From assembly GCA_022825895.1 (NCBI GenBank), contig JAJDVX010000024.1:1-64000 (forward strand): DNA of 64,000 nucleotides. The letters are read 5' to 3'. Position numbers and translations under genes: made by a program. Within the stretch, counting starts at the first letter, position 1, and every line of letters begins with the position of its first letter. Shown in pieces: positions 17,169-53,084 of the stretch. The notes beneath the pieces were generated by a model, which was given only the letters and a program-made list of their open reading frames with translations, was not told where the DNA came from and did no database searches. The DNA comes from Chloroflexota bacterium (lineage in GTDB: Bacteria; Chloroflexota; UBA11872).

Positions 17169-17229
17169 GGCGCCCTTGCGCCCGCCGGGCCAACGCCCGG
17201 CCAAGCGCGAGTGCAATTGGCTTGGCGCC
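17169..17229 (+). promoter_or_regulatory. Structured 5' leader of giant gene 2
   Basis: Outer hexamers GGCGCC (17169-17174 and 17224-17229) enclose a stem of TTGCGC (17176-17181) with GCGCGA (17205-17210) and GCCGGGC (17184-17190) with GCCCGGC (17195-17201). Compared with 5027-5089 the inner stem has changed sequence on both sides while keeping its pairing. The structure again ends 20 bases before the ATG. Confidence 0.65.
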
Positions 17230-17249
17230 CCTTTTCGCCACAAGAGTCC

Positions 17250-29200: not shown

Positions 29201-30419
29201 AGGGGATGATGGCGACACGCTCACGCGCTCGATTGCGGAAAACTCGCCGGCCGGCACTCCGGTCGGCGCGCCAGTCACGGCGACCGCTACCGACGGCGAC
29301 ACGCTGACCTACGCGCTGTCCGGCGCGAACGCCTTCATCATCGACGCCGCTAGCGGCCAGATTCGCGTGGCGGGCGGCGCCGTGCTCGATTACGAGACCA
29401 CCACCTCGTACACGGTCACGGTCAGCGTGACGGACGGCAAGGACGCGCAAGGTAACCCGGACGCGACGGTCGACGCTACGGCGGATGTCACCATCCAGGT
29501 GCTCGACCAGTTGCCGCCGGCCAAGCCGGATGCGCCGGCGCTTGCGCGGTCCGCCGCGCAGCCGACGACCGACCTGGACGTGAACTGGACGGCCCCGGCC
29601 AACCAGGGCCGGCCGACCATCACGGACTTCGACGTACGTTACCGGCAAGTGGGTACGGCGTCGTGGACGGCGCACGCCTTCGTCGGCGTGGGCACGACGA
29701 CCAGGCTCTCGGGTCTGAACGCCGACACCGCCTACGAGGTGCAGGTGGCCGCAGTCAACGTGGAGGGCTTGGGTCCCTGGTCGGACGCCGGCCAGGGCCG
29801 CACGGCAATTCCGACGGTGGTCACGCTGTCCGATCCGCCGCCGGCGGGGCCCACGCCGACGCCCGGCACGCCCACGCCGCCGGCAGTGAGTCCCACGCCC
29901 ACGCCGGTGAATCCCACACCGCCGCCGGTGAGTCCCACGCCGCAACCGGACACGCCCACGCCGGCTGGCCCCACGCCACCGCCGAACGGCCCTGATGGCC
30001 CCAATGGCCCCGGCGACGCCGGCAACTCGGCGTCGACCAACCCACCCAGCAGTTCCTCCGACAGTCCCTCAGGGACGCCGGTGCAGTTGCGCGCCGCAGA
30101 AGGTATCGGAGCAGCCGCAGTCCAGGCTGGCTATGGCATGTACCCGTTGGAGCAAAACCCGGGCCCAAGTCTCCTTGCAGGCTTCGAGGTGTGGACGCCC
30201 GAAAAGGCGCTCATCTTCAGTGTGCTTGGGCCGGGGCTGCTCGGTCTTCTCGGGCTGCTTTCGACACTGCTGAAGTGGAAGTTCCAGACGTCCCTGTGGG
30301 CGGCGCTCTTCGCTGGCTTGGCGGCAATCTTCCTCTTCTTCTGGCGACGCCGGAAGAAAGAGGATGACGAAGCGCACGATCAGGCCGGGCAGGCAGGGCC
30401 GCTTCGACCAGCCACCTAA
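17250..30419 (+). CDS. Giant secreted FN3/cadherin-like repeat protein, membrane-anchored (4389 aa)
   Basis: The larger paralogue of the 5110-15921 protein. The frame is open back to GTG 17211, but ATG 17250 matches the other gene's start in sequence context and distance from the leader hairpin. A signal peptide (ATARGLALAMAAGLIMLAFVAG, about residues 20-46) is followed by a Pro-Thr-Glu linker (about 54-147) and an Ig-like domain (148-240). I then count 14 fibronectin type III domains, 13 cadherin-like domains and 11 DADGDTLTY-type domains, then a Pro-Thr linker (about 4194-4247) and a two-helix membrane hairpin (about 4321-4365). Two cadherin-like units carry ENACCGRFV (Cys 790/791 and 1416/1417), the only Cys I see in either mature protein. 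The likely role is surface adhesion or matrix. Expression is probably governed by the conserved promoter, dyad and leader. Confidence 0.85.
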   Translation: MPAFAVNKVVHFKHRQLPGATARGLALAMAAGLIMLAFVAGDASASSPSTPGQPDSAKTTSTPDPTPLPEPTSEATPEATPESTPESTPEPTAELTPVPTPEPTPEPTPEATPEPTPEPTHEPTREPSPTPEPTPTQEPTPEPGSDPELPAHFSVAISQYIFKQNEDVGTQTLPEAAGGAGEFTYSLTPSLPDGLSFDAASRALTGTPSAAGESTMTYTATDTDGGNASFEFTITVQPAPQTAMQAAKPTAPTVTRTEFSEPSNPALDVSWTAPADNGSPITAYRLTYRKQGDSEWTWSHISDPNNRTFRISSTTVAGESVAVAAGATYEARVQAISSGVNSDWSDTGTGTANRPPTATSAFFGGGTFPVGTIANYNETGQGAVGVLFADADGDTLTYAAAAQHPALLGVSLTGAAGEAKLQVTLLNQGSSKLSYTATDAYGGSVTRTTTIGITAKTSRSIAENSAAGTAVGAPVTGTPYNGVALSYTLAGKAKDSGKFAIDATSGQISLATGASLDYETDDSHRETETWNGQVIAKFYRGEVKYTVDGHNATINVLIKVTDVEAGQPDAPTLTRTEYSEPTNPGLDVTWTAPDANGATITGHEVQYRKKAAEGEDPAAWTTYTYTDAEDNTTSELPATTTSVTLPDLDAGATYEAQVRAVTSLEGPGPWSDSGEGTANTPPNVTTKAIADFSLQWYKFGNWLRSTDLSNGFFQDADGDTISYSTSSQYPGVIKAWLDSNALKIRTLNPTGAATTVTYGAHDAYGGYVSRTVEATGTIGTVQASIIENACCGRFVRNITGVPYNGAALSYTLTGDAFVSGPFVHDAASGWISLGSGKSLDYETKSSYTATLSWVVQEQTASVTVNISVTDVEAGKPAKPTLARTEYSEPTAPGLDVTWTRPALTGEAINRLQITGYEVQYRKKAAEGEDPAAWTLYKYEDPNNAGTQISELPATPTSLTLSGLEAGVTYEVQVRAIGGVEGPGPWSDSGEGTANRPPTATSAGFNGGTFPVGTIAKYNETGAGALGVLFTDADGDTLTYAAAAQQPALLGVNLSGDPEEAKLQVTLINPGTSNVNYVASDAYGGSVTRTATITGTAAASRSVAESAAAGTKVGAPVTGTPYNNVALSYSLTGEAATSGAFEIDSTSGQISVKQGASLDYETKNSYAGQVEYTVNGYASAIALTITLTDVDAPGQPPAAPTLTRTTFSEPTNPALDVTWTAPTDNGVTITGYNVQYRKKAADGETPTAWTTYTYTDSEDNVTSKLPTTPTIMTLPDLDAGATYEVQVRATGAEDDGPWSATGEGTANTPPNLTAAAIANASTAWFRLGGATLVSNLSTGGYFQDADGDALTYSAESAQPGVIKAWIQDNVKLSMQARNPSSSTVTYGAHDAYGGYASRTVVITGTATTTGSIFENACCGRFVRLIKGDPQDQVLTYTLTGDAFVSGPFVHNASTGWISLGAGKSLDYETKNSYTGHLSWVVQGRTAQATITITVKDVEAGKPATPTLARTEYNEPTAPGLDVTWTRPALTGEAINRLQITGYEVQYRKKAADGETPAAWTLYKYDDPNNAGTKISELPATPTSLTLSGLDAGVTYEVQVRAIGGVEGPGPWSDSGEGTANRPPTATSAAFNGGTFPVGTIANYNETGAGALGVLFTDADGDTLSYAAAAQHPALLGVSLTGAAGEAKLQATLRNQGTSNLTYTASDAYGGSVTRTVTLIGTATATRSVSENAAAGTTVGAPVTGTPYNNVALSYALTGEAATSGAFEIDAATGQISVKQGASLDYETKSSYTGQVGYTVNGYASAISVTITLTDLEAGQPAAPTLARTEFSEPSDPALDVSWTAPDANGTTLTGYEVQYRKQVAEGEQANAWTTYTYTDDEDNVTSELPATTTSLTLPDLDAGATYEVQVRARTSLEGEGPWSTTGEGTANRPPTASTAAFTGGTYAVGTAVDYNETGQGALGVLFADADGDALTYAAAAQHPALLGVSLTGAAGEAKLQATLRNQGTSQLTYTASDAYGGSVTRTVTLIGTATASRSVAENAAAGTKVGAPVTGTPYNNVALSYALTGEAATSGAFEIDAATGQISVKQGASLDYETKTSYTGQVGYTVDGYASAISVTINVTDLTTGRPDAPTLARTTYSEPSDPALDVSWTAPTAVTGITISGYEVQYRKKAAAGEDPAAWTTYTYTDDEDNVTSELPATTTSLTLPDLDAGATYEAQVRVVSNEGTGSWSDTGEGTANRPPTATSAAFNGGTFPVGTIAEYKETGQGAVGVLFADADGDTLTYAAAAQHPALLGVSLTGAAGEAKLQATLRNQGSSKLTFTASDAYGGSVTRTVTLIGTATATRSVSENAAAGTTVGDPVTGTPYNNVALSYTLTGEAATSGAFEIDAATGQISVKQGASLDYETESSYAGQVEYTVDGNASAITLTINVTDADAPGQPPAAPTVTRTTFSKPTNPALDVTWTAPTDNGVAITGYKAQYRKNAADGEDPAAWTRFTGTVDVTNRTLTLPNLEAGATYEVQVRASGADDDGPWSATGEGTANRPPTATSVTLSGGTHAVGDHVDYNETGAGAVGVLFADADNDTLTYAASAQQPALLGVSLTGAAGSAKLQVTLVNPGTSTVSYVASDAYGGAVTRTVTLVGTATASRSVAENATAGTKVGAPVTGTPYNNVALSYSLTGEAATSGAFEIDSATGQISVKQGASLDYETKTSYTGQVGYTVDGNASAISLTITLTDLEAGQPDAPTVTRTEYSEPSDPGLDLTWTAPTAVAGVTITGYEVQYRKKAAEGEDPAAWTLYKYDDPDNAGTKISELPATTTSLTLPDLDAGATYEVQVRARTSLEGEGPWSTTGEGTANRPPTASTAAFTGGTYAVGTAVDYNETGQGAVGVLFADADGDTLTYAASAQQPALLGVSLTGAAGSAKLRVTLVNPGTSTVSYVASDAYGGAVTRTVTLIGTSTASRSVAENAAAGTKVGAPVSGTPYNNVALSYALTGEAATSGAFQIDAATGQISVKQGASLDYETKSSYTGQVGYTVDGNASAITLTINVTDAEAAQPDAPTLARTEFSEPSDPALDVNWTAPTAVTGVTLSGYEVQYRKQVAEGEQANAWTTYTYTDPNTETPTTALSATTTSLTLPDLDAGATYEVQVRALSNEGPGPWSDTGEGTANRPPTATSVALSGGTFSVGDTADYNETGEGALGVLFADADSDTLTYAAAAQQPALLSVSLTGAAESAKLQVTLVNPGTSNVTYTASDAYGGSVTRTITLTGTARASRSVAENAAAGTTVGAPVTGTPHNNVALSYTLTGEAATSGAFEIDSATGQISVKQGASLDHETKNSYTGQVEYTVDGNASAITLTINVTDLTTGQPDPPTLARTAFSEPSDPALDVTWTAPTAVTGITISGYEAQYRKQVAEGEPANAWTPYSGALAADATSFNLPELDAGATYEVQIRAVSNEGTGPWSDTGTGRANRPPTTTELALQDRELARTEVLDESLETHYFQDPDNDDLSFWASAEHPGILGTDMTGILETTLTVEGVNPSSSTVTYGAHDGYGGFVSRTFGVTVTESVTRSVREDVPAGTVVGDPVTGTPYQGEALSYTLTGDAADSGDFAIDADSGQISVAEGASLDFDTKTSYTGNVEFTVQGQPATIALTINLTRKPAATTDPPDRNPKLPPQAPDRPTVTQTSSNPTAALDVTWTAPDTRGGPAITDYDVEYRQRNGGNWADHPFTGAGTETTLTGLTPQTTYEVRVRARNAHGRSGWSSPGDGATARPNLPPQFSSQATQRSVPENSPAGTLVGSPVTATDREGGPLTYSLSEASSQFDLDSATGQLSVAEGASLDYEARESYSVVIQASDGLDSTEVTVTITVTDVAEPPDQPDAPAVVPGVSEETELDVSWTAPGNDGRPAITDYDLRYRPEGESAWLAHAVDGVGTETTLTGLEPGTAYEVQVAASNDEGTSPWSDSGVGRTEASLILSEIILPGDDGDTLTRSIAENSPAGTPVGAPVTATATDGDTLTYALSGANAFIIDAASGQIRVAGGAVLDYETTTSYTVTVSVTDGKDAQGNPDATVDATADVTIQVLDQLPPAKPDAPALARSAAQPTTDLDVNWTAPANQGRPTITDFDVRYRQVGTASWTAHAFVGVGTTTRLSGLNADTAYEVQVAAVNVEGLGPWSDAGQGRTAIPTVVTLSDPPPAGPTPTPGTPTPPAVSPTPTPVNPTPPPVSPTPQPDTPTPAGPTPPPNGPDGPNGPGDAGNSASTNPPSSSSDSPSGTPVQLRAAEGIGAAAVQAGYGMYPLEQNPGPSLLAGFEVWTPEKALIFSVLGPGLLGLLGLLSTLLKWKFQTSLWAALFAGLAAIFLFFWRRRKKEDDEAHDQAGQAGPLRPAT
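18615..18911 (+). repeat. Cadherin-like module nearly identical to 6454-6750
   Basis: Partner of the 297-base match in giant gene 1, with three differences, two of them silent third-position changes. Confidence 0.75.
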
Positions 30420-38195: not shown

Positions 38196-39131
38196 CTAGC
38201 GCCAACTTCGTCGGGCACTTCGTGGGGTTGTTCCCCAGCCCTCGGCCCAGGGATCCTCGGACCGCGAACTGCGACGGGGTACCGAGTCGTAGTCGTCGGG
38301 ATCCGGCACGTAATCGGCGGTGAGGATGGTGAGCACTCGCCCATACGATCCGAGTCCAATGGCTTCTTCTCGAAGCGCGAACGTCGTGGAGGTCCTGGGA
38401 AACCACGTGTCGGACCGGCAATTCACCGCAACCCGGTGCGCGCGCCGCACCTTCTGTGGGTTCGAAGTCAGCGACAGGGTGGCTGAACTTGGTACGGGGT
38501 CGTCGGGTCGCATCGGGATCCGTCCAACGCCGGGCACGTTGCCCAGTGCCTCGGATACCCAGGAGAAGCGCACGACGCGATCTTGACTCACGACGGCCGC
38601 AACTGGTTCGGAACTCAGCTTTGCGAATCGGATGGCCGTACTCGTGAGCGAAGTCTCAAATTCCTCGGCGATCTCCCTCACGGCGTCCAGTCCGGGCGCG
38701 TGGCGGTCAAGTGCTGCAACGAACGGGTCGCGGGGCATCAGCAGTTCGGCGGCAAAGTGATCGGCTTCCAACTCGTGCCATCGACTCGATATGAAGCCTG
38801 GCTGGGACAGGTGCCGCTGGCCGGTGGCAAAGAGCGTCCGACGATGATGCGTCATCTGATGGTGACCGAGCTCATGACCGATCGTGAATCGCCGATAACC
38901 GAGACTGGCCACCGAGGTGTTGAACAGAATTCCGAAAGCTGAGCCCACGCGCATAAGACATCCGGAGGCCGAACTGCCGAGGTTGGTGCTTCCTTCCAGC
39001 GTTATGCCCAATCCCTCAACGATGGCAACAACGTCAACTGGCACCGAGGCGCCGTCGCGCAGGTGAAGCACCGCGCGAGCGGCACGGACGGCCAGATCTG
39101 GATCAGCGCTCCGACGGGTCGCTGGATTCAC
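38196..39131 (-). CDS. ImmA/IrrE-type zinc metallopeptidase (CapP-like)
   Basis: A 311-residue COG2856 protease. The zinc motif is HELGHHQMTH (H86, E87, H90) and the third ligand lies in ELEADHFAAELLMP (about E122). The N-terminal part (VPVDVVAIVEGLGITLEG) is typical of the family. It starts at GTG 39131 and overlaps the upstream XRE gene by 29 bases, so the two are co-translated. In phage, ICE and CBASS loci (ImmA with ImmR, CapP with CapH) this peptidase cleaves the partner XRE repressor after DNA damage and switches on the neighbouring genes. By analogy it should control the divergent MBL and E2-E1-JAB-patatin operon. The C-terminal 100 residues are not recognised and may be the sensing part. 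Confidence 0.85.
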   Translation of the reverse strand: MNPATRRSADPDLAVRAARAVLHLRDGASVPVDVVAIVEGLGITLEGSTNLGSSASGCLMRVGSAFGILFNTSVASLGYRRFTIGHELGHHQMTHHRRTLFATGQRHLSQPGFISSRWHELEADHFAAELLMPRDPFVAALDRHAPGLDAVREIAEEFETSLTSTAIRFAKLSSEPVAAVVSQDRVVRFSWVSEALGNVPGVGRIPMRPDDPVPSSATLSLTSNPQKVRRAHRVAVNCRSDTWFPRTSTTFALREEAIGLGSYGRVLTILTADYVPDPDDYDSVPRRSSRSEDPWAEGWGTTPRSARRSWR

Positions 39132-39522
39132 GTTTCATCCGATCCACTTCGGCTAGGCGCTCGCTAAACTTCTGAAGGTCGCTCAGCGCTTCGTCGCTCA
39201 TATCGGCCATGTGCCGAAACACCGCTTGGTATTGCGGCTTGGTGGTCTGCTCACTAACTTCGCGATCCATCAGGTAGTCCACGCTGACTGACAGGGCGTC
39301 GGCCAGGCGTTCCAGGTTCGTGGCGCTGGGCCGGCGCACACCATTCTCGAAGTGCGAAATGGCCGCTGGCGCCAGACCGGCACGCGCACCGAGCGTTGCC
39401 TGCGTATAGCCCATAGCCCGACGGGTCTCGCGTAGACGTAGCGCCAGACGTGCATTGCGACCGCCGACCTGGGACTCAGGGGGATTACGATTTCGTAGAG
39501 CATCACTTGACGAATCCTTCAT
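39103..39522 (-). CDS. XRE-family repressor (CapH-like)
   Basis: A 139-residue protein with one Cro/C1-type HTH (about residues 27-85: LRLRETRRAMGYTQATLGAR, then LAPAAISHFENGVRRPSATN, then LADALSVSVDYLM). The C-terminal tail (FRHMADMSDEALSDLQKF) is helical and probably mediates dimerisation or cleavage control. ATG at 39522. It is divergent from the MBL gene with only 61 bases between starts, so it can repress both its own operon and the effector operon. It overlaps the ImmA/IrrE peptidase gene downstream. The pair matches the repressor/peptidase switch known from CBASS (CapH/CapP) and from ICEBs1 (ImmR/ImmA); which is closer cannot be decided without alignment. Confidence 0.87.
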   Translation of the reverse strand: MKDSSSDALRNRNPPESQVGGRNARLALRLRETRRAMGYTQATLGARAGLAPAAISHFENGVRRPSATNLERLADALSVSVDYLMDREVSEQTTKPQYQAVFRHMADMSDEALSDLQKFSERLAEVDRMKRESSDPSER

Positions 39523-39583: not shown

Positions 39584-40708
39584 ATGAGCTTCGAGCTTCC
39601 GCAGCGTGGTTATGTCTTCTGGCCGGTCGGAAACGGCGACAGCACGACAGTCGTCATTGACTCAGATGCCCATCTACAGGTCGACTTGAACCACCTTGAA
39701 CAATCCGAGGATGACGAAGACCCCACGTGGGCCGTCGTCGATGAGTTGGTCAACCTGCTGCCGACGAAGGATGGGCGCCCCTACCTCTCCGCGTTTGCCC
39801 TGACGCATCCCGATCAGGATCACTGCCGTGGCTTCCCGAAGCTTCTCGAGGAAGTGGACGTCGGCGAACTCTGGTTTACGCCGCGCATCTTTCGCGAGTA
39901 CAACAAGGACCTCTGCGACGACGCGGAGGCCTTCAAGGAGGAGGCCGAGCGCCGCGTCAAGGCGACTATTGAGGCGGACGGAGACCCAGGTGCGGGAAAC
40001 CGCGTGCGGATCTTCGGGTACTCGGAACTGCTGAACGAAGACGAGTTCCAGGGCTTTCCGGACGCCCGCATTACGATTCCTGGCAGCGAGCTGGCCACGG
40101 TCGACGAGGCGGACGTCTCAAGCACATTTCGCGCCTTCGTGCACTCCCCGTTCAAGGACGACGACGCGGGCGAGAGGAACGATACAAGTCTCGGCATGCA
40201 GATCACGTTGATCGACGGATCTGGGAATCTTCAAGCACTGCTACTAGGAGATCTCTCCTACCCCATCATCAAACGCATCTTTGCGGTCAGCAAGGGCGAC
40301 GATCTCGCCTGGAACGTGCTCCTGGCACCGCACCACTGCTCGAAGTCCGCGATGTATTGGAAGGACGAGGATGACAGCAAAGAGCAGCTGAAGCAGCACA
40401 TCGTCGACGAAATGGACGGTGCCTCGGGCGATCCGAATCGTGTCGTGGCGAGTTCGAATACCGTGCCGTCCTCGAACGAGCTGGGGGATAACCCGCCCCA
40501 CGCGAAGGCCAAGACGCAGTACGAGACCATCACCGAGTCCTTCCTTTGCACGATGGACAACGACGATCCGATCGTGGCGAGCCTCGAGAATGGGGAGATC
40601 TCGTTCGCCGGAGCTCCAACGCCTTCGAAGTCAGCATCAGAGGCGGCTCGCGAAGCACGCGGGTCGAACGAGACTCCCCGAGACGCCGTCACCTATGGCC
40701 GGGGCTAA
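39584..40708 (+). CDS. Metallo-beta-lactamase-fold hydrolase of a ubiquitin-type operon
   Basis: A 374-residue protein whose start (ATG 39584) is fixed by AAGGAG five bases upstream. The metal-binding motif is THPDQDHCRGF (H75, D77, D79, H80). Further ligands are likely D223 in LLLGDLS and H250/H251 in LLAPHHCSKSA. The layout (GNGDSTTVVID near the N-terminus) resembles the ComEC/Rec2-type branch of the fold. Its stop codon overlaps the start of the next gene by 14 bases, so the two are translationally coupled. MBL-fold proteins have been reported beside bacterial E1/E2/JAB operons, where their substrate is unknown; nuclease or nucleotide hydrolysis is plausible. It is soluble, with no signal peptide. 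Confidence 0.8.
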   Translation: MSFELPQRGYVFWPVGNGDSTTVVIDSDAHLQVDLNHLEQSEDDEDPTWAVVDELVNLLPTKDGRPYLSAFALTHPDQDHCRGFPKLLEEVDVGELWFTPRIFREYNKDLCDDAEAFKEEAERRVKATIEADGDPGAGNRVRIFGYSELLNEDEFQGFPDARITIPGSELATVDEADVSSTFRAFVHSPFKDDDAGERNDTSLGMQITLIDGSGNLQALLLGDLSYPIIKRIFAVSKGDDLAWNVLLAPHHCSKSAMYWKDEDDSKEQLKQHIVDEMDGASGDPNRVVASSNTVPSSNELGDNPPHAKAKTQYETITESFLCTMDNDDPIVASLENGEISFAGAPTPSKSASEAAREARGSNETPRDAVTYGRG

Positions 40709-43700
40709 GCTGCGCAGCTTCGAACTTGCCAGCGAGCAGCTACGAGAGGTTGCGGCGGCATCTGCCGGTTCTGTTCAGATCGTTGGCGAAGCAGCCCGAG
40801 CGAGCGGCTACTGTCAGTTTGACGTAAGCGTCCATTTCGATGGTTTGGAGCGCGCCGAAGGCGGACTTCCGGTGCGGGCCCGCGAGTCGTTTCAGCTCGT
40901 TGTCCCACCTACATTTCCCTTCGATTATCCGCGTGTCGAGACATCGCACCAGCGGTTCGCGGGCTTTCCGCACGTGCAATGGATTCGCCATCCCTGCCTG
41001 TATCGAAGCCCGTCCGAGTGGAAACCCGAGCATGGGATGTATGGGTTTATCGAGCGGCTCGACGGCTGGGTACGCGACGCCGCACAGAACAACCTCGACC
41101 CCGACGATGCCCCTCTTCACCCCCCGGTGGCATACACCAGTGGCGAACGGATCGTCGTTCCCCGGGAAGACACACCCCGGGTTGGAACGTCCCCATGGAC
41201 TGGATTCGCGGAACTCCGGCAGCGGGGCCACCGAACCGAGATCATCGGTTGGAAGTCATCTGCTCAGGTGCGCCCGGAGCAATTCGCTCCGGCGATTCTG
41301 CTCCATGAACCCTTACCGTTCGAGTACCCCGGGACAGTCAATGCTCTGCTGAAGGAGCTGGAATCGCACGGCATCGAATTCGGGCAGTTCATTTGGGACC
41401 TCGCGTCGCTTGCAAATTGCACGCAAGCACAGATGCCACTAATCGTGGTCGTGGGTACACCGATGCGCCGTGTGGAGGCAGGAGGTCGCGCTCTTCAGCA
41501 TCTGGCTGTCTGGGAGATCCCCGGCGACGATGCAGACAAGTTGCGGGAGATGCAGGTCGTAACGAGCGTCGACGACTCGGAGGCGTGCCAAGAGGCGATC
41601 ACGGAGGTCGCCAAGTGGTGCGTCGAGGCCCGGGTGCGCTGGTGCAAAGTCCGTGAAGTGCGGCCGGAGGTAACGAGAAGGCGGGACCAGGATTCACCGA
41701 TGGCCTGGTTTAGTGGCAAGCGAGTCGCCATTTGGGGATGCGGTGCCATTGGAACGCAGGTAGCGGAGGCGGTAGTGCGGGCTGGTGCTACGCGAGTTGA
41801 GCTCGTCGACTACAAAGAGGTCGCGCCGGGACTCTTAGTTCGGCAGGGGTTCGAAGACTGCGATATCGGTCGCGGGAAAGCCGCGGCCCTTGCCGACCGG
41901 CTCAAGCGGATCGAGCCGGATCTCGAGGTCGAGGCGATATGCGACGAATTGATCCATCGCCTCGGTGAAGCCGACCCGCTACCGGATGTAGACCTTGTGA
42001 TTGACTGCACGGCTTCGTCGGCTGTTCGGATGAAACTCGAGCAGACGCTCTGTGGAGATTTCACGCGCCCCGCAATTGCCTCGATGAGTGTCAACGATGA
42101 CGCGTCGTCGGCCATTGCGACTCTTTCCAAAGCGGCCCACACCGGGGGACCACTCGACCTGAACAGGCGCCTGAAGTTAGAGGCATGCCGAAGCTCGCGA
42201 CTTTCAAAGCTGCGAGAAGCGTTCTGGCCAAAGCAACCAAGGTCTGAGCGATTTGAGCCAGAGCCCGGGTGCTCGGAACCGACATTCGTTGGCTCTTTTG
42301 CGGACCTCGTCGGGCAGTCGGCTCGGATGCTGAACGCCATAGCTCGCACGCTGTCGAAGCCCGATGACGGGCTAACGGGGGCCGGATGGATTTTCGAAGA
42401 GCAGGGTCCAAGCCATGAGTTCTCCTGGGAGCCGGACTACATCGTGCAAGAGCACGGGCGGGGATACTCGGTTCGGGTTTCTTCAGCGGCTGTTCGCGAC
42501 ATGCAGGCGTGGGCGAGACGCTCTGGTCGCACGGCCGAGCCCGATGTGGAGACTGGCGGCCTCGTGTTCGGCGAACTGAACGAGGCAGCGGGTGTGCTCT
42601 GGGTGACGGAGGTCGAAGGGCCGCCACCGGACAGCGACGCCGCCGAGGACCATTTCACTTGTGGAACCCAAGGCATGGCCGAGGCTGCCGACGCCAAGGA
42701 CCGCCGCTTCCTCGGATCGGTCACGTGCGTTGGAAGCTGGCACACCCACCCGACCGGGAGTGCGCAACCGAGTCAGGTGGATCTTGGTGCAGTTGCCGAA
42801 ATTCTCGCGCCGCCAGCCTCGACGAGGGTGTCCTTCGTTCTACTGATCCTCGCCGGCTGCCCCGACACCCCAGTCCTCGGAGCACATGCGTTCCGACGAA
42901 CGCTCCACAGCGGAGATCGTGTGGACCGCGAGCACGACACGGCTGCGACAACCCGAATCCAGAAGAAGCCAGCTATGCAGCGTGACATTGGTCTTGCTCT
43001 CTCTGGTGGAGGATTCCGAGCGATTGCCTTCCACCTCGGATGCCTTCGAGCGCTGGACGACCTCGGGCTTCTGAATCGACTGCAGGTCATCTCAAGCGTT
43101 TCGGGAGGTTCCGTGATTGCGGCGCTGTACACCTACGCGAACGACTCGTTTCCGGAATTCGATGCCCGCGTAGTCAGGTTGCTGCGCAGAGGACTCACCG
43201 GCGACATTTTGAGGGCGGCGTTCCGCCCGAGGTCGGTCGGGAAGCTGGCTTGGAGCTTCGCGGTTGCTGTCGTGTGGTTCGCACTCCAGACGCTCTTTCG
43301 GATCATCCCGCGTGGACGAACCCCCGACGCCCTCCGTCCCGGCAGGCCGCCGCCTCTAGGCATATTCAATGGGAGCGATGTCTTCCGCGATGCGATCCAG
43401 ACCGTCTTCACGGACACGCTGGTGCGAGAAGTCGCCCAAGACTCGCTCGACATCGTCATGAGTGCCACGGAACTCCGCACGGCATCAGCGTTTCGATTTG
43501 GAAGCAGGCACAGTGGCTGCTGGCGATACGGGGATATTGATCCCGATGATGCGTACGTAGCCGACGCCGTTGCAGCGTCCGCAGCCTATCCGCTCTGGCT
43601 CCCGGCACTAGACCGGAGGTATCGCTTCACAAAGGAAGGAGAGCCTCCGGCCACCAGACGCGTCTTACTTGCCGACGGTGGCATCTTTGAAAACCTCGGC

Positions 43701-44117
43701 GTTGGTCCATTAGAGCCTGGACGAGATCCGCAAATCAGCACAAACGTCTTCAACCCCGCCTACATCATCGCCTGCGACGCCGGTACTGGCCTTTTCGAGG
43801 GTGACACGTACCCCGTTTCTTGGGCCCGTCGCATGCATCGATCTTTCCAGACAGCCTTCCGTAAGGCGCAAGACGCGACAAGGAATCGGCTACACCGGCT
43901 CGTAGCGTCTGGAGACATTTCGGGATTCGTGCTGGCCTACCTGGGGCAGAGAGAAGATCGCTTGCCGTGGCTCCCACCTGAACTCCCGACGCTAAGCGAA
44001 GTCCACGACTACCCGACGGACTTCTCGCCCATGGACGCAGAGGATATTGATCGCCTATCACTCCGCGGAGAACTCCTCACCAGGTTGCTCGTCGCCCACT
44101 ATTTCCCAAACCTCTAG
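40695..44117 (+). CDS. E2-E1-JAB-patatin fusion protein (Cap2 + Cap3 + CapV in one chain)
   Basis: A 1140-residue protein from ATG 40695, 14 bases inside the MBL gene. Domains: an E2-like domain (1-150) with probable catalytic Cys in HPCLY (C101); a linker region; an E1/ThiF domain (342-550) with Rossmann motif IWGCGAIGTQVAEAV and a probable catalytic Cys in PGCSEPTF (C526); a JAB/JAMM isopeptidase domain (590-735) with E619 and HTHPTGSAQPSQVD (H683, H685, S693, D696); then a 25-residue linker and a patatin phospholipase (763-1135) with oxyanion motif SGGGFR, nucleophile in SSVSGGS (S803) and DGG dyad (D994). Residues 851-871 are strongly hydrophobic. All key residues are present, so each activity may be alive. 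In CBASS these are separate proteins (Cap2, Cap3, CapV). Here no cyclase or ubiquitin-like gene is nearby. An in-frame ATG at 42975 could also yield free patatin. Confidence 0.88.
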   Translation: MAGAKLRSFELASEQLREVAAASAGSVQIVGEAARASGYCQFDVSVHFDGLERAEGGLPVRARESFQLVVPPTFPFDYPRVETSHQRFAGFPHVQWIRHPCLYRSPSEWKPEHGMYGFIERLDGWVRDAAQNNLDPDDAPLHPPVAYTSGERIVVPREDTPRVGTSPWTGFAELRQRGHRTEIIGWKSSAQVRPEQFAPAILLHEPLPFEYPGTVNALLKELESHGIEFGQFIWDLASLANCTQAQMPLIVVVGTPMRRVEAGGRALQHLAVWEIPGDDADKLREMQVVTSVDDSEACQEAITEVAKWCVEARVRWCKVREVRPEVTRRRDQDSPMAWFSGKRVAIWGCGAIGTQVAEAVVRAGATRVELVDYKEVAPGLLVRQGFEDCDIGRGKAAALADRLKRIEPDLEVEAICDELIHRLGEADPLPDVDLVIDCTASSAVRMKLEQTLCGDFTRPAIASMSVNDDASSAIATLSKAAHTGGPLDLNRRLKLEACRSSRLSKLREAFWPKQPRSERFEPEPGCSEPTFVGSFADLVGQSARMLNAIARTLSKPDDGLTGAGWIFEEQGPSHEFSWEPDYIVQEHGRGYSVRVSSAAVRDMQAWARRSGRTAEPDVETGGLVFGELNEAAGVLWVTEVEGPPPDSDAAEDHFTCGTQGMAEAADAKDRRFLGSVTCVGSWHTHPTGSAQPSQVDLGAVAEILAPPASTRVSFVLLILAGCPDTPVLGAHAFRRTLHSGDRVDREHDTAATTRIQKKPAMQRDIGLALSGGGFRAIAFHLGCLRALDDLGLLNRLQVISSVSGGSVIAALYTYANDSFPEFDARVVRLLRRGLTGDILRAAFRPRSVGKLAWSFAVAVVWFALQTLFRIIPRGRTPDALRPGRPPPLGIFNGSDVFRDAIQTVFTDTLVREVAQDSLDIVMSATELRTASAFRFGSRHSGCWRYGDIDPDDAYVADAVAASAAYPLWLPALDRRYRFTKEGEPPATRRVLLADGGIFENLGVGPLEPGRDPQISTNVFNPAYIIACDAGTGLFEGDTYPVSWARRMHRSFQTAFRKAQDATRNRLHRLVASGDISGFVLAYLGQREDRLPWLPPELPTLSEVHDYPTDFSPMDAEDIDRLSLRGELLTRLLVAHYFPNL

Positions 44118-44634: not shown

Positions 44635-45570
44635 CTACGACGACGCCTCGAGCTTGCGTGCTTTGCCTGCGCCGCCCGCGTGTTCCCAGAGTTCGACGGC
44701 GCCAACGCCGCGTGGCAAGTGCTTGTTCACAATCCGCAGCACGGTGTTGTGTCGGCGCTTCACCTCAGGGCTTCTGAGGTCTTGTCCGAAGCCAACGACC
44801 GCGCGAAGTCCGCCGCTTAGGCGACGAATGGGTGGCGTCAGACCCGTCTCGACCCGGGCGCGAATCAGCGCCTCGACTCCGTCGCGTACGGCATCAAACG
44901 CACCGTGCCAGATCCAAACGTAGTGCAGAAGCTGGAATGCCGCATAGTCCAGTTTGGCGGATGACTTCGTCGCATCCTTGAACTCAATGAGCACCAGGCG
45001 TCCACGTGAGTCGACGGCAAGCTGGTCAAGTTTGGTTGCACCCGACGAAGGCGCCACCCAGCGGTTACTTCGCGCGACGGATTTCAAGTCCCTGAGCGCC
45101 GACCGGACCTCAGGCAGTGCCGCAGCCTCCGCCTGATGGGCCAGCACCACCTCGCGGTCGATGGGAACCCAGGGCTTCCGGACTCGCGACCATTGCATCT
45201 GTATCGCGCCTTCGGACTTGGTGAACCTTGGATTGACCTCCACGCCACGCACATAGCTGATAAGAGCCGAGCCGAGGCCCGTCTCCCCGGTACGCCAGAT
45301 CCTGAAGAGACCCTGCGCACACGCCTGTGAGGTGTAGGTGCAATCTGCCGTCAGCTTCACGCCTCCGCCCCGCAGCGCCCGAGCCTTGACTAATCCTGTC
45401 ATCCCGCAGTAAACGTGCACCTCGTCATTGCGCCGGAAGTGCACGTCCAGCCCAACGCCTCCGGCGTTTACATGGCCCAGCGAAAGCAAGGGCGCAAGCA
45501 AGCCCTGCGGCCGCAGAAGCCGCAGGAGTTGCGGCGAGGGTGCGCGGTCATACGATGCTGGAGTTTCCAT
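44635..45570 (-). CDS. Hypothetical protein with PD-(D/E)XK-like nuclease motif
   Basis: A 311-residue protein starting at ATG 45570 (METPASYDRAPSPQ). I do not recognise the family. The middle contains a pattern typical of restriction-endonuclease-fold proteins: ATKLDQLAVDSRGRLVLIEF with D182, E196 and, two residues after E196, K198 (E-F-K), followed by LDYAAFQLLHYVW, the usual helix after the active site. The N-terminal half has several Cys (C55, C77, C84) and no known motif. It lies ten bases after the gene at 45581-46387 in the same direction, so the two form an operon. Context suggests a defence role or DNA processing, but that is inference. Confidence 0.6.
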   Translation of the reverse strand: METPASYDRAPSPQLLRLLRPQGLLAPLLSLGHVNAGGVGLDVHFRRNDEVHVYCGMTGLVKARALRGGGVKLTADCTYTSQACAQGLFRIWRTGETGLGSALISYVRGVEVNPRFTKSEGAIQMQWSRVRKPWVPIDREVVLAHQAEAAALPEVRSALRDLKSVARSNRWVAPSSGATKLDQLAVDSRGRLVLIEFKDATKSSAKLDYAAFQLLHYVWIWHGAFDAVRDGVEALIRARVETGLTPPIRRLSGGLRAVVGFGQDLRSPEVKRRHNTVLRIVNKHLPRGVGAVELWEHAGGAGKARKLEASS

Positions 45571-45580
45571 AGGGCAACCC

Positions 45581-46387
45581 TCAGAGCTGGTAGCGCTGGC
45601 GCATGTACGTCGCCCAGCCTGTTAGGCCCGCCGCCTCACCAACGCGAACAACCTCCGACGCCGACAGTACCGGTGCATACGATGGCCGCGGCAGAAGGCG
45701 CGTCCACTCCATCCATTGCCTCGCAATGTCGGGATTCGCATCGTGAGCGCAAAGGGCGAACCACGCGCGGTGTAGGGTGCCGTCCTGCTCGAGTCCGCGC
45801 GCGATGGCCAAGTTGCGCATGGGCTGCTGCATGTCGTAGGCGAACGGACAGGGCCTATCGAGATTGGAGTTCGGAAAGGCTTTGTGCACACTTCCGTGGC
45901 TTCCGGCAAAGATCTCCCAGTAGCGACGATCGCGTCGCTGCCGCACGGGCCGGCGCAGGTAACAGGCCGTCGGAGCGCGCATGAAGACTCGGGCGGACCG
46001 GCAGACGTCTTTCCTCCGATTCGCCGGGCTATTGCGTCCGCCACAGTGCGTGAATCCCCGCTCACTCAGCTTGACTTCGAGCAGAACGGCGACCCGGCGT
46101 CGAAGGCGCATTCGGCCCCACAGGATCACGTCGGCGGCCGTGGCGTGTTCGTCATCGCCGGGTCGATCGCCCGCGATCTCGCCGAGCAGTTCGCCGGGCG
46201 GCACCCATTCGAACTGCACCCTATCGATCTCTAGCCGAGTGTCAACGAGCTGGCTCACAATCTCTGAGAGGTATGCCCGCGGCCCTTCCCGAAATGGCAA
46301 GAACAGGTTGAGTGCGAACACTTGGGAGCTGCGTAGATGTGCAGCGTGCTCGTGAAGCCGCCCCAAGTCGGCGTCCATCGCCTTCAC
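45581..46387 (-). CDS. Hypothetical PD-(D/E)XK nuclease-like protein
   Basis: 268 residues from GTG 46387 (an ATG three codons later is equally possible). The visible active-site pattern is TAADVILWGR (D86) followed by VAVLLEVKLSERGF (E104, K106) and then Cys residues (C115, C129). This resembles the PD-(D/E)XK group represented by PGN_0703, where the E-x-K strand is followed by 'SE.GF..C'. I assign it to that group with caution. It is the first gene of a two-gene minus-strand operon with 44635-45570, which also carries an E-x-K pattern. It could be a nuclease pair in the defence island. Confidence 0.6.
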   Translation of the reverse strand: MKAMDADLGRLHEHAAHLRSSQVFALNLFLPFREGPRAYLSEIVSQLVDTRLEIDRVQFEWVPPGELLGEIAGDRPGDDEHATAADVILWGRMRLRRRVAVLLEVKLSERGFTHCGGRNSPANRRKDVCRSARVFMRAPTACYLRRPVRQRRDRRYWEIFAGSHGSVHKAFPNSNLDRPCPFAYDMQQPMRNLAIARGLEQDGTLHRAWFALCAHDANPDIARQWMEWTRLLPRPSYAPVLSASEVVRVGEAAGLTGWATYMRQRYQL

Positions 46388-49748: not shown

Positions 49749-52700
49749 CTAGACCCGTAATGGCTCACGTATGGACTCGCGAACGCGCGAAACAGCGGCT
49801 GCCAGATCTGGCACAGCGCGTTCTTGTTTCGCATGTAGGAACAGAAACCGACACGCAGCGACTCGCAGGCCCAGAGACTCCTCGAGAGCCAGCGCGTAGG
49901 TCGCACCCTGCGGCTCGTAACGCGCGAACGCTTGGTCAAGCGCCTCACCGTCGCGAAGCGCGTCAGTCTTGTAATCCACCACGACCAAGTCTCCATCAGA
50001 GGTTTGATACATCAGATCAATGAAACCTTCGACCAGGACCTCGCGCCCACGATCATCAGCAATCGGTACCGCGACGTAGACCTCCCGCCAATAGCGTCCG
50101 GACTCGACGGCATTCCGCAGACTCGAGCTATCGAGCGCGACGCGAATGAGCCGAGCAACGTAAGCGGAATACCGCGGATCCAGGCCTTCAGCGGCGCTCT
50201 GCGCCCTCGCAACCGCACTAACTTCGAAGTCGTCGGCATCTTCAATGTCGATCGTCTGAAGCGCCGAGTGCACGGCACGGCCGATGCTGGTACCCGCACG
50301 CCCACGACGCCACGGCGGGAGATCGTCAGGACGTTCATCCTTCTCGACGTTTGGGTCATCTTGGTCTGCTCTCCTCGCGAGGCTGGTGGCCGACTTAACC
50401 TCGAAGTTGGCATTTGAGCGGATCGCTGCACCTCGCTCGGTGAGCCACTGTTCGCGGTCACTGGCAGTTCCGGTTGGGCCTTGTGACTTCACGCGTCTGG
50501 CAATATCGGCAGTTGGCCGTTCTCCACTGCTTGGAGGGTGATGCTGCGTCGGTTCAGCTGCAAACCGGCGTAAAAGAAGGGTCTCTTGGGAGTCGCCAAG
50601 CTGATCAAGCTGATCGGCGATGATGTGCGCATCCGAAGTCAGACTGCCGCCCGCCTTTCGGTAAGTGCTGACGACGAGATGATCCCGCGCACGAGTTGTG
50701 GCGACGTAGTTCAGGCGCACGCGTTCGGCGCGCTGCATGCAGACTTCCTGTTCGAACAGTTGGTCGTAGCCTGGCGTCTTCAAGCCTTCTCTCAGGTGCA
50801 GTTCGGGTCCCTTGTCATCACGCCACAGTAAAGCGGGGCGTTCGTCACGAGATCTGACGTTGAGACCGGTGAGAACGACGATTGGGAACTCCAGCCCCTT
50901 AGCAGCGTGAATCGTCAGGATGCGGACCGCGTCATGATCGGACTCGGGCACCACGGACTCGACCACGTGTGAATCTTCATCCGCTTGATGCTGAGCCCAG
51001 CGTAGAAACACGTTCAGAGTGCACCCGCCGCGATCGCCGAAACTGCGGGCTTGATCGAGGAGAAATCTCAGACGCTGCCAGTGGTCGCGCGGACGACGGT
51101 CGGCGACGGCCAACTCCATGAGCCGTCGCTCGCGAATTACACGCTCCACCAGCGCACTAACCGACAGACGCCACTGTCCGGCGGCAGTGTCCCGGAACCA
51201 ACGCATAGCTTCGGCGACTGGATGGTCGGCTTGAATCCCCTCCGGAGCCTCGACACGATAGTCCCAATGGCCACCGCACTCGCGCCAGCCGAGCAAGTCC
51301 ACGTCGGAACATGCAAATGCCGGCGATCGAAGGGAGCCCACCAGAGCGACCTCATCCGTGGGATCGTCAATCGCATGGAGAATGCCGAGGAGCCTGCGAA
51401 CATCCTCGCTATGAAAGACCAGCGAGCGACTTTCTAACCGATAGGGGATATTTTGTTCGTCGAGTTCGGGAAGCAGCTGGCTCAAACCGGCGCGGGCGGG
51501 CACGAGCACGGCGATATCGGAGTAGTTTGCTGCCCGCCAGCACTCATCACTCTGATCGAGCACCGGCCACTGGGACCCTCGCACATCAGCAATGATCTGA
51601 CCAAGAGCCTGTGCTTCAGCTCGTCGAACCGCCGGAACCGAAGCATCGAGCTCATCGCCGACCACCACGACGCCGGGCGCATGCTTACGGCTTAGCGGTC
51701 CGCGGCATGCCTCTAGCTCTTCCCAGACCGCTTGGCCACCGCTCGAGTCGGCCTGCATCAGCGGTCCAAAGACTGCGTTTACGAAGTCCGTTACGCCTTG
51801 TTGTGATCGAAAATTCTGGGTGAGGTGCACGAGAGAGCCCGCATTCCGCTCACGAATTGCGGTGTACTGCCCGATGTCGGCTCGACGAAAGCGATAGATC
51901 GACTGCTTTGGATCACCGACATAAAAGAGGCGGCCTTGCTCGTCTCCAGCGATGGCGTCTGCAATCTCGGACTGGAGCGGGTCCGTGTCGTGAAACTCAT
52001 CGATCAGAACGAAGCGAAAGCGCTCGCGGATTCGAGCTGCCACCTCAGGATTCGCACGCAGCAGGGTGCGGCAGTGGACAAGCAGGTCTTGAAAGCCGAG
52101 GCGCCCTCGGTGCCGGCGCTCGTCGGCGTAATCGAGCACGAATTCTCGAATTGCGCTGTAAATGGGCGCGAGAATGCACGCAACGACTTCGAGCCGTAGT
52201 CGCTCGCGGCGTGCATGAAGGGTCCCCATCGCTTGCCGAATCTCACTGAGCGTCTCGCCGGTCCAGTTGCCTCTCCGCCCCATGTTGCCAACGCGTAGCG
52301 ATGTCGCCGTGGAGTGTTCAAGCAGCTTGACCAGCGTGCCATTATCGCCGGCAGCTTCACGCAGACTGGCAGCGAAGCCTTCCAAGTCCTGCAATCGCCG
52401 ATAGAGGCGATCCTCGTGGTCGACACATGCTCCGCGCGCCTCGATCACGGACTGGAGGCCTGAAACGAATGAGTCAGTCTCGATGTACCCAGGTCTCATG
52501 ACCGTCTCGTCAGACTGCGCTCGATCCCAATCCTCGTGCACCTTGCGCACGAGGCCCATCAGGTGATCTAAGGTCAGACCAGCGTCAAAGGCGTCGCGCA
52601 TCGGCCCTGCGAGCTTGGGATCTTCAAGCATGGTGTCGAGCCTGTCATGCCACCGCTCAACCAGCTCGATACTGGATTCCGTGTCGTCAACGATCTCGAA

Positions 52701-53084
52701 GCCTGGGGGCAGCCCTGCCTCGAGCGGAAAGAGCGAGAGGACACGGGCGGCAAATGCGTGAATGGTTTCGATGGCAGAGCCATCCAGTTCCTCCAGCGCT
52801 GATTGGCATAGTCTCCGACGTTCGCGATCGTCCTTGACTTCAGATTCCTCTTCGAGACGTTCGAGGATTCGGTCTCGTAGTTCTGCGGCGGCCTTTTCGG
52901 TAAACGTGATCGCCGCAATACCTGAACCGCGGACACGTCCTGTTGCAATCAGGTTGACTATCCGCTCAACCAGTTGGTGCGTTTTGCCTGTTCCGGCTCC
53001 CGCTTCGACGAAAAGAGTCTCATCAAGCGCTCGCTCAATCCGGACGCGATCGTCCCAGTCACTAAGTTGGGCGACTGTGGTCAC
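49749..53084 (-). CDS. addA: AddA-like UvrD-type helicase/nuclease
   Basis: A 1111-residue superfamily 1A helicase with C-terminal nuclease. Walker A is VEAGAGTGKTHQL (K34), motif II is VLIDEFHDTDP, motif III-IV lies in GDPKQSIYRFRRAD, and motif VI is LNYVATTRARDHLVV. The C-terminal RecB-type nuclease has VEGFIDLMY (D1023), VVVDYKTD (D1037, K1039) and QGATYAL (Q1059). The gene starts at GTG 53084 and overlaps the addB stop by four bases (GTGA), so the two are coupled. The complex resects double-strand ends for recombination and degrades linear foreign DNA. It could be the housekeeping AddAB or an island-borne relative; the surrounding defence genes leave both open. Confidence 0.85.
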   Translation of the reverse strand: MTTVAQLSDWDDRVRIERALDETLFVEAGAGTGKTHQLVERIVNLIATGRVRGSGIAAITFTEKAAAELRDRILERLEEESEVKDDRERRRLCQSALEELDGSAIETIHAFAARVLSLFPLEAGLPPGFEIVDDTESSIELVERWHDRLDTMLEDPKLAGPMRDAFDAGLTLDHLMGLVRKVHEDWDRAQSDETVMRPGYIETDSFVSGLQSVIEARGACVDHEDRLYRRLQDLEGFAASLREAAGDNGTLVKLLEHSTATSLRVGNMGRRGNWTGETLSEIRQAMGTLHARRERLRLEVVACILAPIYSAIREFVLDYADERRHRGRLGFQDLLVHCRTLLRANPEVAARIRERFRFVLIDEFHDTDPLQSEIADAIAGDEQGRLFYVGDPKQSIYRFRRADIGQYTAIRERNAGSLVHLTQNFRSQQGVTDFVNAVFGPLMQADSSGGQAVWEELEACRGPLSRKHAPGVVVVGDELDASVPAVRRAEAQALGQIIADVRGSQWPVLDQSDECWRAANYSDIAVLVPARAGLSQLLPELDEQNIPYRLESRSLVFHSEDVRRLLGILHAIDDPTDEVALVGSLRSPAFACSDVDLLGWRECGGHWDYRVEAPEGIQADHPVAEAMRWFRDTAAGQWRLSVSALVERVIRERRLMELAVADRRPRDHWQRLRFLLDQARSFGDRGGCTLNVFLRWAQHQADEDSHVVESVVPESDHDAVRILTIHAAKGLEFPIVVLTGLNVRSRDERPALLWRDDKGPELHLREGLKTPGYDQLFEQEVCMQRAERVRLNYVATTRARDHLVVSTYRKAGGSLTSDAHIIADQLDQLGDSQETLLLRRFAAEPTQHHPPSSGERPTADIARRVKSQGPTGTASDREQWLTERGAAIRSNANFEVKSATSLARRADQDDPNVEKDERPDDLPPWRRGRAGTSIGRAVHSALQTIDIEDADDFEVSAVARAQSAAEGLDPRYSAYVARLIRVALDSSSLRNAVESGRYWREVYVAVPIADDRGREVLVEGFIDLMYQTSDGDLVVVDYKTDALRDGEALDQAFARYEPQGATYALALEESLGLRVAACRFLFLHAKQERAVPDLAAAVSRVRESIREPLRV

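Follow-up and report, generated by a model that had tools for sequence, protein, structure and literature searches.

A 6A-MBL-type operon with a patatin-like phospholipase fused to its E2-E1-JAB protein, a probable defence locus of a Chloroflexota bacterium

An MBL gene overlapping an E2-E1-JAB-patatin fusion gene

The DNA analyzed here, referred to as the window, comprises 64,000 nucleotides from a Chloroflexota bacterium (positions 1 to 64,000 of contig JAJDVX010000024.1, assembly GCA_022825895.1), and the subject of this work is a two-gene operon on its + strand. The first gene (39584-40708) encodes a ComEC-like protein of 374 aa with a metallo-β-lactamase (MBL) fold, and the second (40695-44117) a protein of 1140 aa (P0001) in which E2, E1, JAB and patatin-like phospholipase domains are fused. 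Both genes lie on the same strand and overlap by 14 bp, the adjacency required of a 6A-MBL operon. The likely start codon of the fusion is the ATG at 40695, within the final 14 bases of the MBL gene, in a frame without stops from 40392 up to the terminal stop at 44117. When compared with NCBIfam release 20, the MBL protein matched 6A-MBL_enzyme (NF058524) with 271.9 bits for a cut-off of 220, and the fusion matched 6A-MBL_cap2_3 (NF058523) with 372 bits for a cut-off of 320, over residues 57-718; both models are annotated as "anti-phage 6A-MBL system". The same operon type, a triple-module E2-E1-JAB protein adjoining a specialised MBL domain, constitutes row 6a of Iyer et al. 2006 (PMC1779556). 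Hence, the locus is a variant of the named 6A-MBL system and not the new system that the initial annotation had proposed. Neither "patatin" nor "phospholipase" is mentioned in the text of that paper; its label 'Goxy' is read here as Gluconobacter oxydans, in which the patatin has a gene of its own that overlaps the core. Full-text searches of the open-licence literature, without preprints, returned no paper on "6A-MBL", nor any description of the fused patatin, the exchangeable third gene or the conserved MBL tail presented below.

The four domains of the fusion, identified through Pfam, NCBIfam, alignment and AlphaFold, each scored above the Pfam gathering threshold. The E2 domain (residues 13-159; 40731-41171, +), with the catalytic C101, matched Prok-E2_A (PF14457, 81.5 bits) over that same span, and the E1 (ThiF) domain (residues ~342-566; 41718-42392, +), with C526, matched PF00899 with 72.1 bits over residues 342-466. 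These are followed by a JAB/JAMM isopeptidase domain (residues ~590-735; 42462-42899, +) with E619, H683, H685, S693 and D696, which matched Prok-JAB (PF14464, 34.1 bits) over residues 614-713, and by the patatin-like phospholipase domain (residues 765-1140; 42987-44114, +) with its glycines 771-773, S803 and D994, which matched Patatin (PF01734, 65.2 bits) over residues 767-1004. Moreover, the PADLOC E1-E2 model covered residues 13-566 with 309.7 bits. The single open frame and the functional residues named in the initial annotation held up, and C101, C526, H683, H685, D696, S803 and D994 proved invariant in an alignment of 25 fused proteins. Across all loci with the respective domain, C101 and C526, the catalytic cysteines of Cap2-type E2-E1 proteins, were each found in 86/86, and H683, H685 and D696 in 84/86, with L043 and L099 gapped there (loci are numbered with an L); E619, H683, H685, S693 and D696 are conserved in every row with letters at those columns. 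The Ser/Asp dyad of the patatin domain, S803 and D994, is present in 76/76 loci, and so is G773 of the glycine-rich loop, while G771 and G772 are present in 75/76 (L034 is gapped).

An AlphaFold model of the full fusion chain reached a mean predicted local distance difference test (pLDDT) score of 82 and a predicted template modelling score of 0.68. Its top fold match in the Protein Data Bank (PDB) was the complex of Enterobacter cloacae Cap2 with its cyclase (7to3), and Atg7-Atg10 (4gsk) appeared at rank 41. The MBL protein was modelled with a pLDDT of 87, the ComEC beta-lactamase-like domain (9ic4) being its closest PDB fold; no solved relatives of this protein were found by sequence search. 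Over all loci, its residues H75, D77, D79, H80, D223 and H250 are kept in 94/94 proteins and H187 in 89/94, and we take these seven to be candidate metal ligands. A hydrophobic segment was also observed within the patatin domain of the window (residues 853-872; 43251-43310), and long hydrophobic stretches were seen by eye at the same site in several relatives; this segment is possibly a membrane anchor.

Recurrence of the patatin and its replacement by membrane proteins

Relatives were collected by a genome scan with an alignment of the MBL protein, which gave 298 stretches and 247 relatives, the best 80 of which were used. Two of these were duplicates, L057 because it includes the L003 sequence and L117 because it represents the opposite end of the L116 chromosome; without them, 78 loci remained. 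Since most sequences in the alignment came from loci with a patatin, this sample may be tilted, and it includes near copies such as the four nearly identical loci L078, L080, L081 and L082. A search with the whole fusion gave 104 plasmid records, 12 of which were opened, among them L040, described below, and L042, an ordinary locus of a cyclic oligonucleotide-based anti-phage signalling system (CBASS); these plasmid loci favour patatin, since they were found with the whole fusion. A genome scan with the patatin alone produced 34 pattern stretches and no confirmed relative. The complete set of 95 loci comprises the 78 genome loci, the window, L003, 10 plasmid loci and 5 loci on viral contigs. 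In 400 genomes of the phylum of the window, the 6A-MBL Cap2_3 model scored above its cut-off in two, one of them that of the window, and more weakly in 359, many of these in the E1 region only; phage genomes gave no match.

Among the 78 loci found by MBL alone, 23 have the patatin fused, 42 have it as a separate gene directly after the core and 6 have no adjacent patatin, the remaining 7 being incomplete (6 cut off and one, L084, without a visible Cap2_3). The patatin is thus fused to or adjoining the core in 65/71 complete loci. Counted over all 95 loci, 25 are fused, 52 have a separate patatin, 10 lack it, 7 are cut and one has no Cap2_3. The patatin is a regular part of these operons, though it lies outside the two 6A-MBL models. 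When separate, the patatin domain begins between -12 and +41 nt relative to the Cap2_3 stop. The four-domain order of the window recurs as an in-frame fusion in 24 further loci, and the HTHP motif of JAB and the patatin motif are separated by 74-86 aa in 23/25 fused proteins, L093 and L122 having been missed by the script motif; such recurrence with similar spacing rules out a sequencing artefact as the origin of the fusion. In 21/25 fused proteins, the 12 residues that precede the patatin motif contain no in-frame Met, GTG and TTG starts not being counted. The window is among the four with a Met, and the in-frame ATG at 42975, directly 5' of the patatin part, makes an additional separate patatin start possible there.

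In a quick tree of the E2-E1-JAB part (82 rows, with long-branch warnings), the window falls in a clade of six fused proteins with support of 100, its nearest relative being that of L044 with 62% identity. The fused or separate label changes at least four times on this tree, and therefore the joint form has probably been made or broken more than once. Fused rows carry the labels of ten phyla, many of them from metagenome bins whose labels may be wrong. L003, a genome of the family of the window, agrees identically with DNA of L057, a Chloroflexi bin, and the window is thus probably of Chloroflexota origin. On a Mesorhizobium plasmid (L040:4285-9191), separate E2-like, ThiF, JAB-like and MBL-like genes were found with a patatin 42% identical to that of the window, apparently a split version of the same gene set.

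In four of the six loci without an adjacent patatin, a single family of transmembrane (TM) proteins directly follows Cap2_3 (L069:11433-12152, L070:11450-12142, L075:11494-12186 and L088:11475-12188). These proteins, of 231-240 aa with 3-4 hydrophobic segments, matched no Pfam model above cut-off and no PADLOC model. In L126, a member of the same family immediately precedes the MBL gene, and in L125 and L127 one lies upstream of it in divergent orientation. The family also adjoins MBL genes without E1, E2 or JAB of their own, as MBL+TM pairs, in L034 (4055-4789, -) and L048 (4064-4825, -); the MBL of L034 is PDC-M48B (233.5 bits, PADLOC) and that of L048 was assigned by motif. Such pairs suggest that the MBL protein is the partner of the effector and that conjugation tunes it. 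With 9/95 loci, in 6A operons and in MBL+TM pairs, this family forms the largest neighbour cluster; no fourth conserved gene emerged, every other cluster being present in at most 5/95 loci. Behind the core of L125, L128, L153 and L155 there are genes for other small hydrophobic proteins, those of L125 and L153 being alike by eye. In a set of distant plasmid loci (7 opened of 250 records), the next gene encoded a patatin in two (L152, L154), a membrane protein in two (L153, L155) and a second MBL protein in one (L151). In L078, and likewise in L080, L081 and L082, the operon is followed after 36 bp by another gene for an MBL-fold protein on the opposite strand (12593-13816, -, in L078), which PADLOC scored as LmuA-like with 51 bits.

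The C-terminal tail of the MBL protein and the flanking genes

The last residues of the MBL protein (346-374; 40619-40705, +) form a proposed ubiquitin-like conjugation tail, delimited by a drop in pLDDT and by conservation. Block means of pLDDT fall from 96 to 58, 51, 47 and 39 across residues 341-374, and the stretch before G372 is poorly conserved and of low AlphaFold confidence. G372 itself is present in 64/64 closer relatives, an alignment of the window, genome loci and one viral contig that has the distant clade outside it. Over all loci this position is a glycine in 86/94, and the eight rows gapped there are members of the distant clade or L037, whose frame has no such tail. The motif [FY]G occurs in the final 8 aa of 80/86 distinct tails, drawn from 93 loci after dropping L037 and the split gene of L086, compared to a mean of 3.0 and a maximum of 8 in 500 shuffles; as related sequences are not independent, this comparison serves as a rough guide only. 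The same ending was found in 2/64 Cap2_3 and 0/76 patatin C-termini, and in none of four other MBL proteins checked near these loci, one of which (in L127) follows a 6A core. The start codon or ribosome-binding site of the next gene was ruled out as the cause of this conservation, since only 7/63 cases show an overlap between the start and the glycine codon, and all four Gly codons and both Phe codons are used. Distant 6A MBL proteins mostly terminate in or near PRAG or ARAG, and the only CBASS cyclase at hand, a cGAS/DncV-like nucleotidyltransferase (CD-NTase), terminates in GRAG. According to the passages of PMC10097602 available, CBASS cyclases are conjugated through their C-terminal Gly/Ala, a residue whose conservation is limited to operons that contain Cap2 and Cap3. 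A conserved glycine tail such as that of the MBL protein is what would be expected of a conjugated C-terminus.

Divergently from the operon, and 61 bp before the MBL start, lies a CapH-like helix-turn-helix gene (39103-39522, -; PADLOC capH, 64.6 bits), overlapped by a gene for a CapP-like IrrE (M78) protease (38196-39131, -; PADLOC capP, 171.4 bits, and Pfam M78). Among 90 upstream open reading frames (ORFs) on the opposite strand from 63 loci (within 1.5 kb and of 80-480 aa; the window, L003 and four loci that were cut or near copies were left out), there were 9 CapP, 4 CapH and 5 WYL matches. CapH and CapP couple expression to DNA damage, as stated in the part of PMC13373217 that was available. 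Together with the NCBIfam 6A-MBL models, these regulator-like genes indicate that this real and recurrent locus is probably defensive, in agreement with the role initially assigned to it.

Behind the operon lie two genes (44635-46387, -), the second of which matches the REase-ARP and PDDEXK_13 nuclease families; therefore, the region may be a defence island. Further away, a UvrD-type helicase with a C-terminal PD-(D/E)XK nuclease domain is encoded at 49749-53084 (-). Two giant ORFs of 3603 and 4402 aa (5110-15921 and 17211-30419, +) were also observed; the pieces of 1500 aa scanned from them contain many fibronectin type III and cadherin domains, and the AT skew is ~0.2 over much of this region.

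A working model and its alternatives

Compared with 6A-MBL as curated, the window holds the same pair of E2-E1-JAB protein and MBL partner, both above the curated cut-offs, whereas both models stop short of the patatin (Cap2_3 at residue 718) that is here fused at the C-terminus. With type II CBASS, the operon shares a Cap2-like E2-E1 fold, a JAB isopeptidase, a phospholipase and CapH/CapP-type regulators; comparable in kind is a C-terminal glycine on a non-ubiquitin protein, here the MBL protein, where it mostly has 1-6 trailing residues. The operon differs in that there is no CD-NTase, the MBL protein standing in its place, in that E2, E1 and JAB form one chain and in that the patatin lies outside the CapV model. 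Bil and Bub systems employ E1, E2 and JAB enzymes for protein conjugation. In contrast to these two systems, both named in the available part of PMC13373217, no ubiquitin-like gene was seen in the two-gene operon, with no dedicated beta-grasp search made, and the partner on the operon strand is a ComEC-like MBL. MBL proteins of the PADLOC PDC-M48 type (L034, L048) are likewise ComEC-like, but come without E1, E2 or JAB of their own and are found next to a member of the TM family seen in place of the patatin.

We infer, as the most economical reading, that the MBL protein would replace the CD-NTase of type II CBASS as the conjugated protein, with the patatin or a membrane protein as effector. 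The locus would thus be a 6A-MBL operon with a fused phospholipase effector, in which the MBL protein would be attached by E1 and E2 and released by JAB, with the patatin as a swappable membrane effector, a reading to which we assign a probability of roughly 0.6. The CapH/CapP-like regulators would repress the operon until DNA damage occurs. Through its C-terminal glycine tail, the ComEC-like MBL protein would then be activated by the E1 and E2 domains and joined to a target, and the JAB domain would both trim the extra C-terminal residues and undo this attachment. Finally, the primed MBL protein would trigger the patatin, leading to hydrolysis of membrane lipids and arrest of the infected cell. 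More tentatively, and with considerable doubt, the MBL enzyme may be viewed as a ubiquitin-like modifier, attached and detached by a fused chain that also carries the phospholipase that the MBL protein switches, without any nucleotide messenger; it would then be the second protein without a beta-grasp fold to be so used, besides the CBASS cyclases.

Several observations weigh against the reading of the patatin as a swappable effector of a conjugated MBL protein. No candidate third gene was seen in L062, nor in two of the seven distant plasmid loci (L149 and L150, from Escherichia coli and Vibrio), an IS26 copy lying directly downstream of the core in L149. In L065 the third gene is missing downstream, and the sole patatin-like frame, a weak one (E 4e-36), lies upstream in the opposite strand; in L127 and L151 the gene after the core encodes a second MBL protein. 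The share of patatin given above is too high for 6A-MBL at large, because only the best 80 of 247 relatives were used and several of them are near copies. Regarding the tail, most MBL proteins have 1-6 residues beyond [FY]G, and therefore trimming by JAB has to be assumed; some distant MBL proteins end differently (GGGGYA, PAYA, PLSHG, HGAS), and the conserved glycine could instead serve binding. 

The initial annotation had suggested a phospholipase controlled directly by conjugation or deconjugation. In such a scheme, the patatin, or the fusion itself, would receive the MBL protein from E2 in cis and lose it again through the neighbouring JAB, so that attachment would switch lipid cleavage on or off without a messenger. 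Such control is possible, and the similar spacing at which JAB and patatin are joined, the probably repeated making or breaking of the joint form and the absence of a CD-NTase nearby fit with it. We consider it unlikely, since the patatin is a separate gene in 42/65 patatin-bearing genome loci, membrane proteins can stand in for it, its best lysine column reaches only 48/76 and the conserved conjugation-type tail sits on the MBL protein. The TM family beside MBL proteins without E1, E2 or JAB further suggests that the MBL protein, and not conjugation, drives the effector. Alternatively, the MBL protein could be attached to a phospholipid in the manner of Atg8, with the patatin as a lipid-handling partner that cleaves or remodels that lipid rather than killing the cell. 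Cap2-type E1-E2 proteins resemble E2-bound ATG7 (PMC12355090, in the part available), in line with 4gsk among the fold matches, lipid conjugation is raised as a possibility in passages of PMC10097602, and membrane proteins are predicted as the products of the alternative third genes. Replacement of the patatin by membrane proteins fits an effector better, however, and the literature passages at hand do not show lipid conjugation by a Cap2-type enzyme; we regard this scheme as very unlikely.

A CBASS in disguise, in which the patatin answers a cyclic nucleotide from a distant CD-NTase and the MBL protein degrades the messenger, would be in keeping with the closeness of the E2-E1 fold to Cap2 (7to3), with patatins being CBASS effectors and with MBL folds including phosphodiesterases. 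The CapV effector is present only in some CBASS. Our patatin family shows remote kinship to a CapV (hhalign probability 69%, 87 columns), and the L003 patatin has a weak match, below cut-off, to the anti-phage phospholipase DS2_1. The patatin of the window, however, gave no NCBIfam match at E 0.01, whereas a true CapV used as control scored 269.5 bits for CBASS_lipase, which rules out the initial equation of this domain with CapV. No match to the CD-NTase family PF18144, a model that could miss a divergent cyclase, was found in the genome of the window (44 contigs, 94% complete), and hence none in the operon, as had been claimed. Across the 71 genomes searched (49 + 22, that of the window included; L049, L051, L061, L067, L084, L097, L111, L114 and L121 were left out), 15 had a match above cut-off and 56, among them that of the window, had none. 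With contigs of equal length counted as one and the same, the CD-NTase lay on the contig of the operon in six genomes, at roughly 18 kb in L120, 37 kb in L096, 44 kb in L058, 53 kb in L087, 256 kb in L092 and 422 kb in L077; in the remaining ones it lay on other contigs. Where contigs are short, a neighbour could be hidden. As none was found within 10 kb, and none on the same contig closer than ~18 kb, homologues do not consistently sit beside a CD-NTase as they would in an ordinary CBASS, and a hidden CD-NTase is ruled out as a rule. We therefore hold the distant-cyclase scheme to be highly improbable. The stretches L135-L148 had no sampled 60-base word in common with the 6A loci.

Under the preferred reading of a 6A-MBL operon with a swappable membrane effector, the conserved end of the MBL protein provides a concrete candidate for a conjugation tail, testable through a single residue. 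The exchange between patatin and membrane proteins points to a killing arm that is absent from both curated 6A-MBL models. With the fusion, moreover, the output of the effector could be measured alongside conjugation and deconjugation in one and the same chain.

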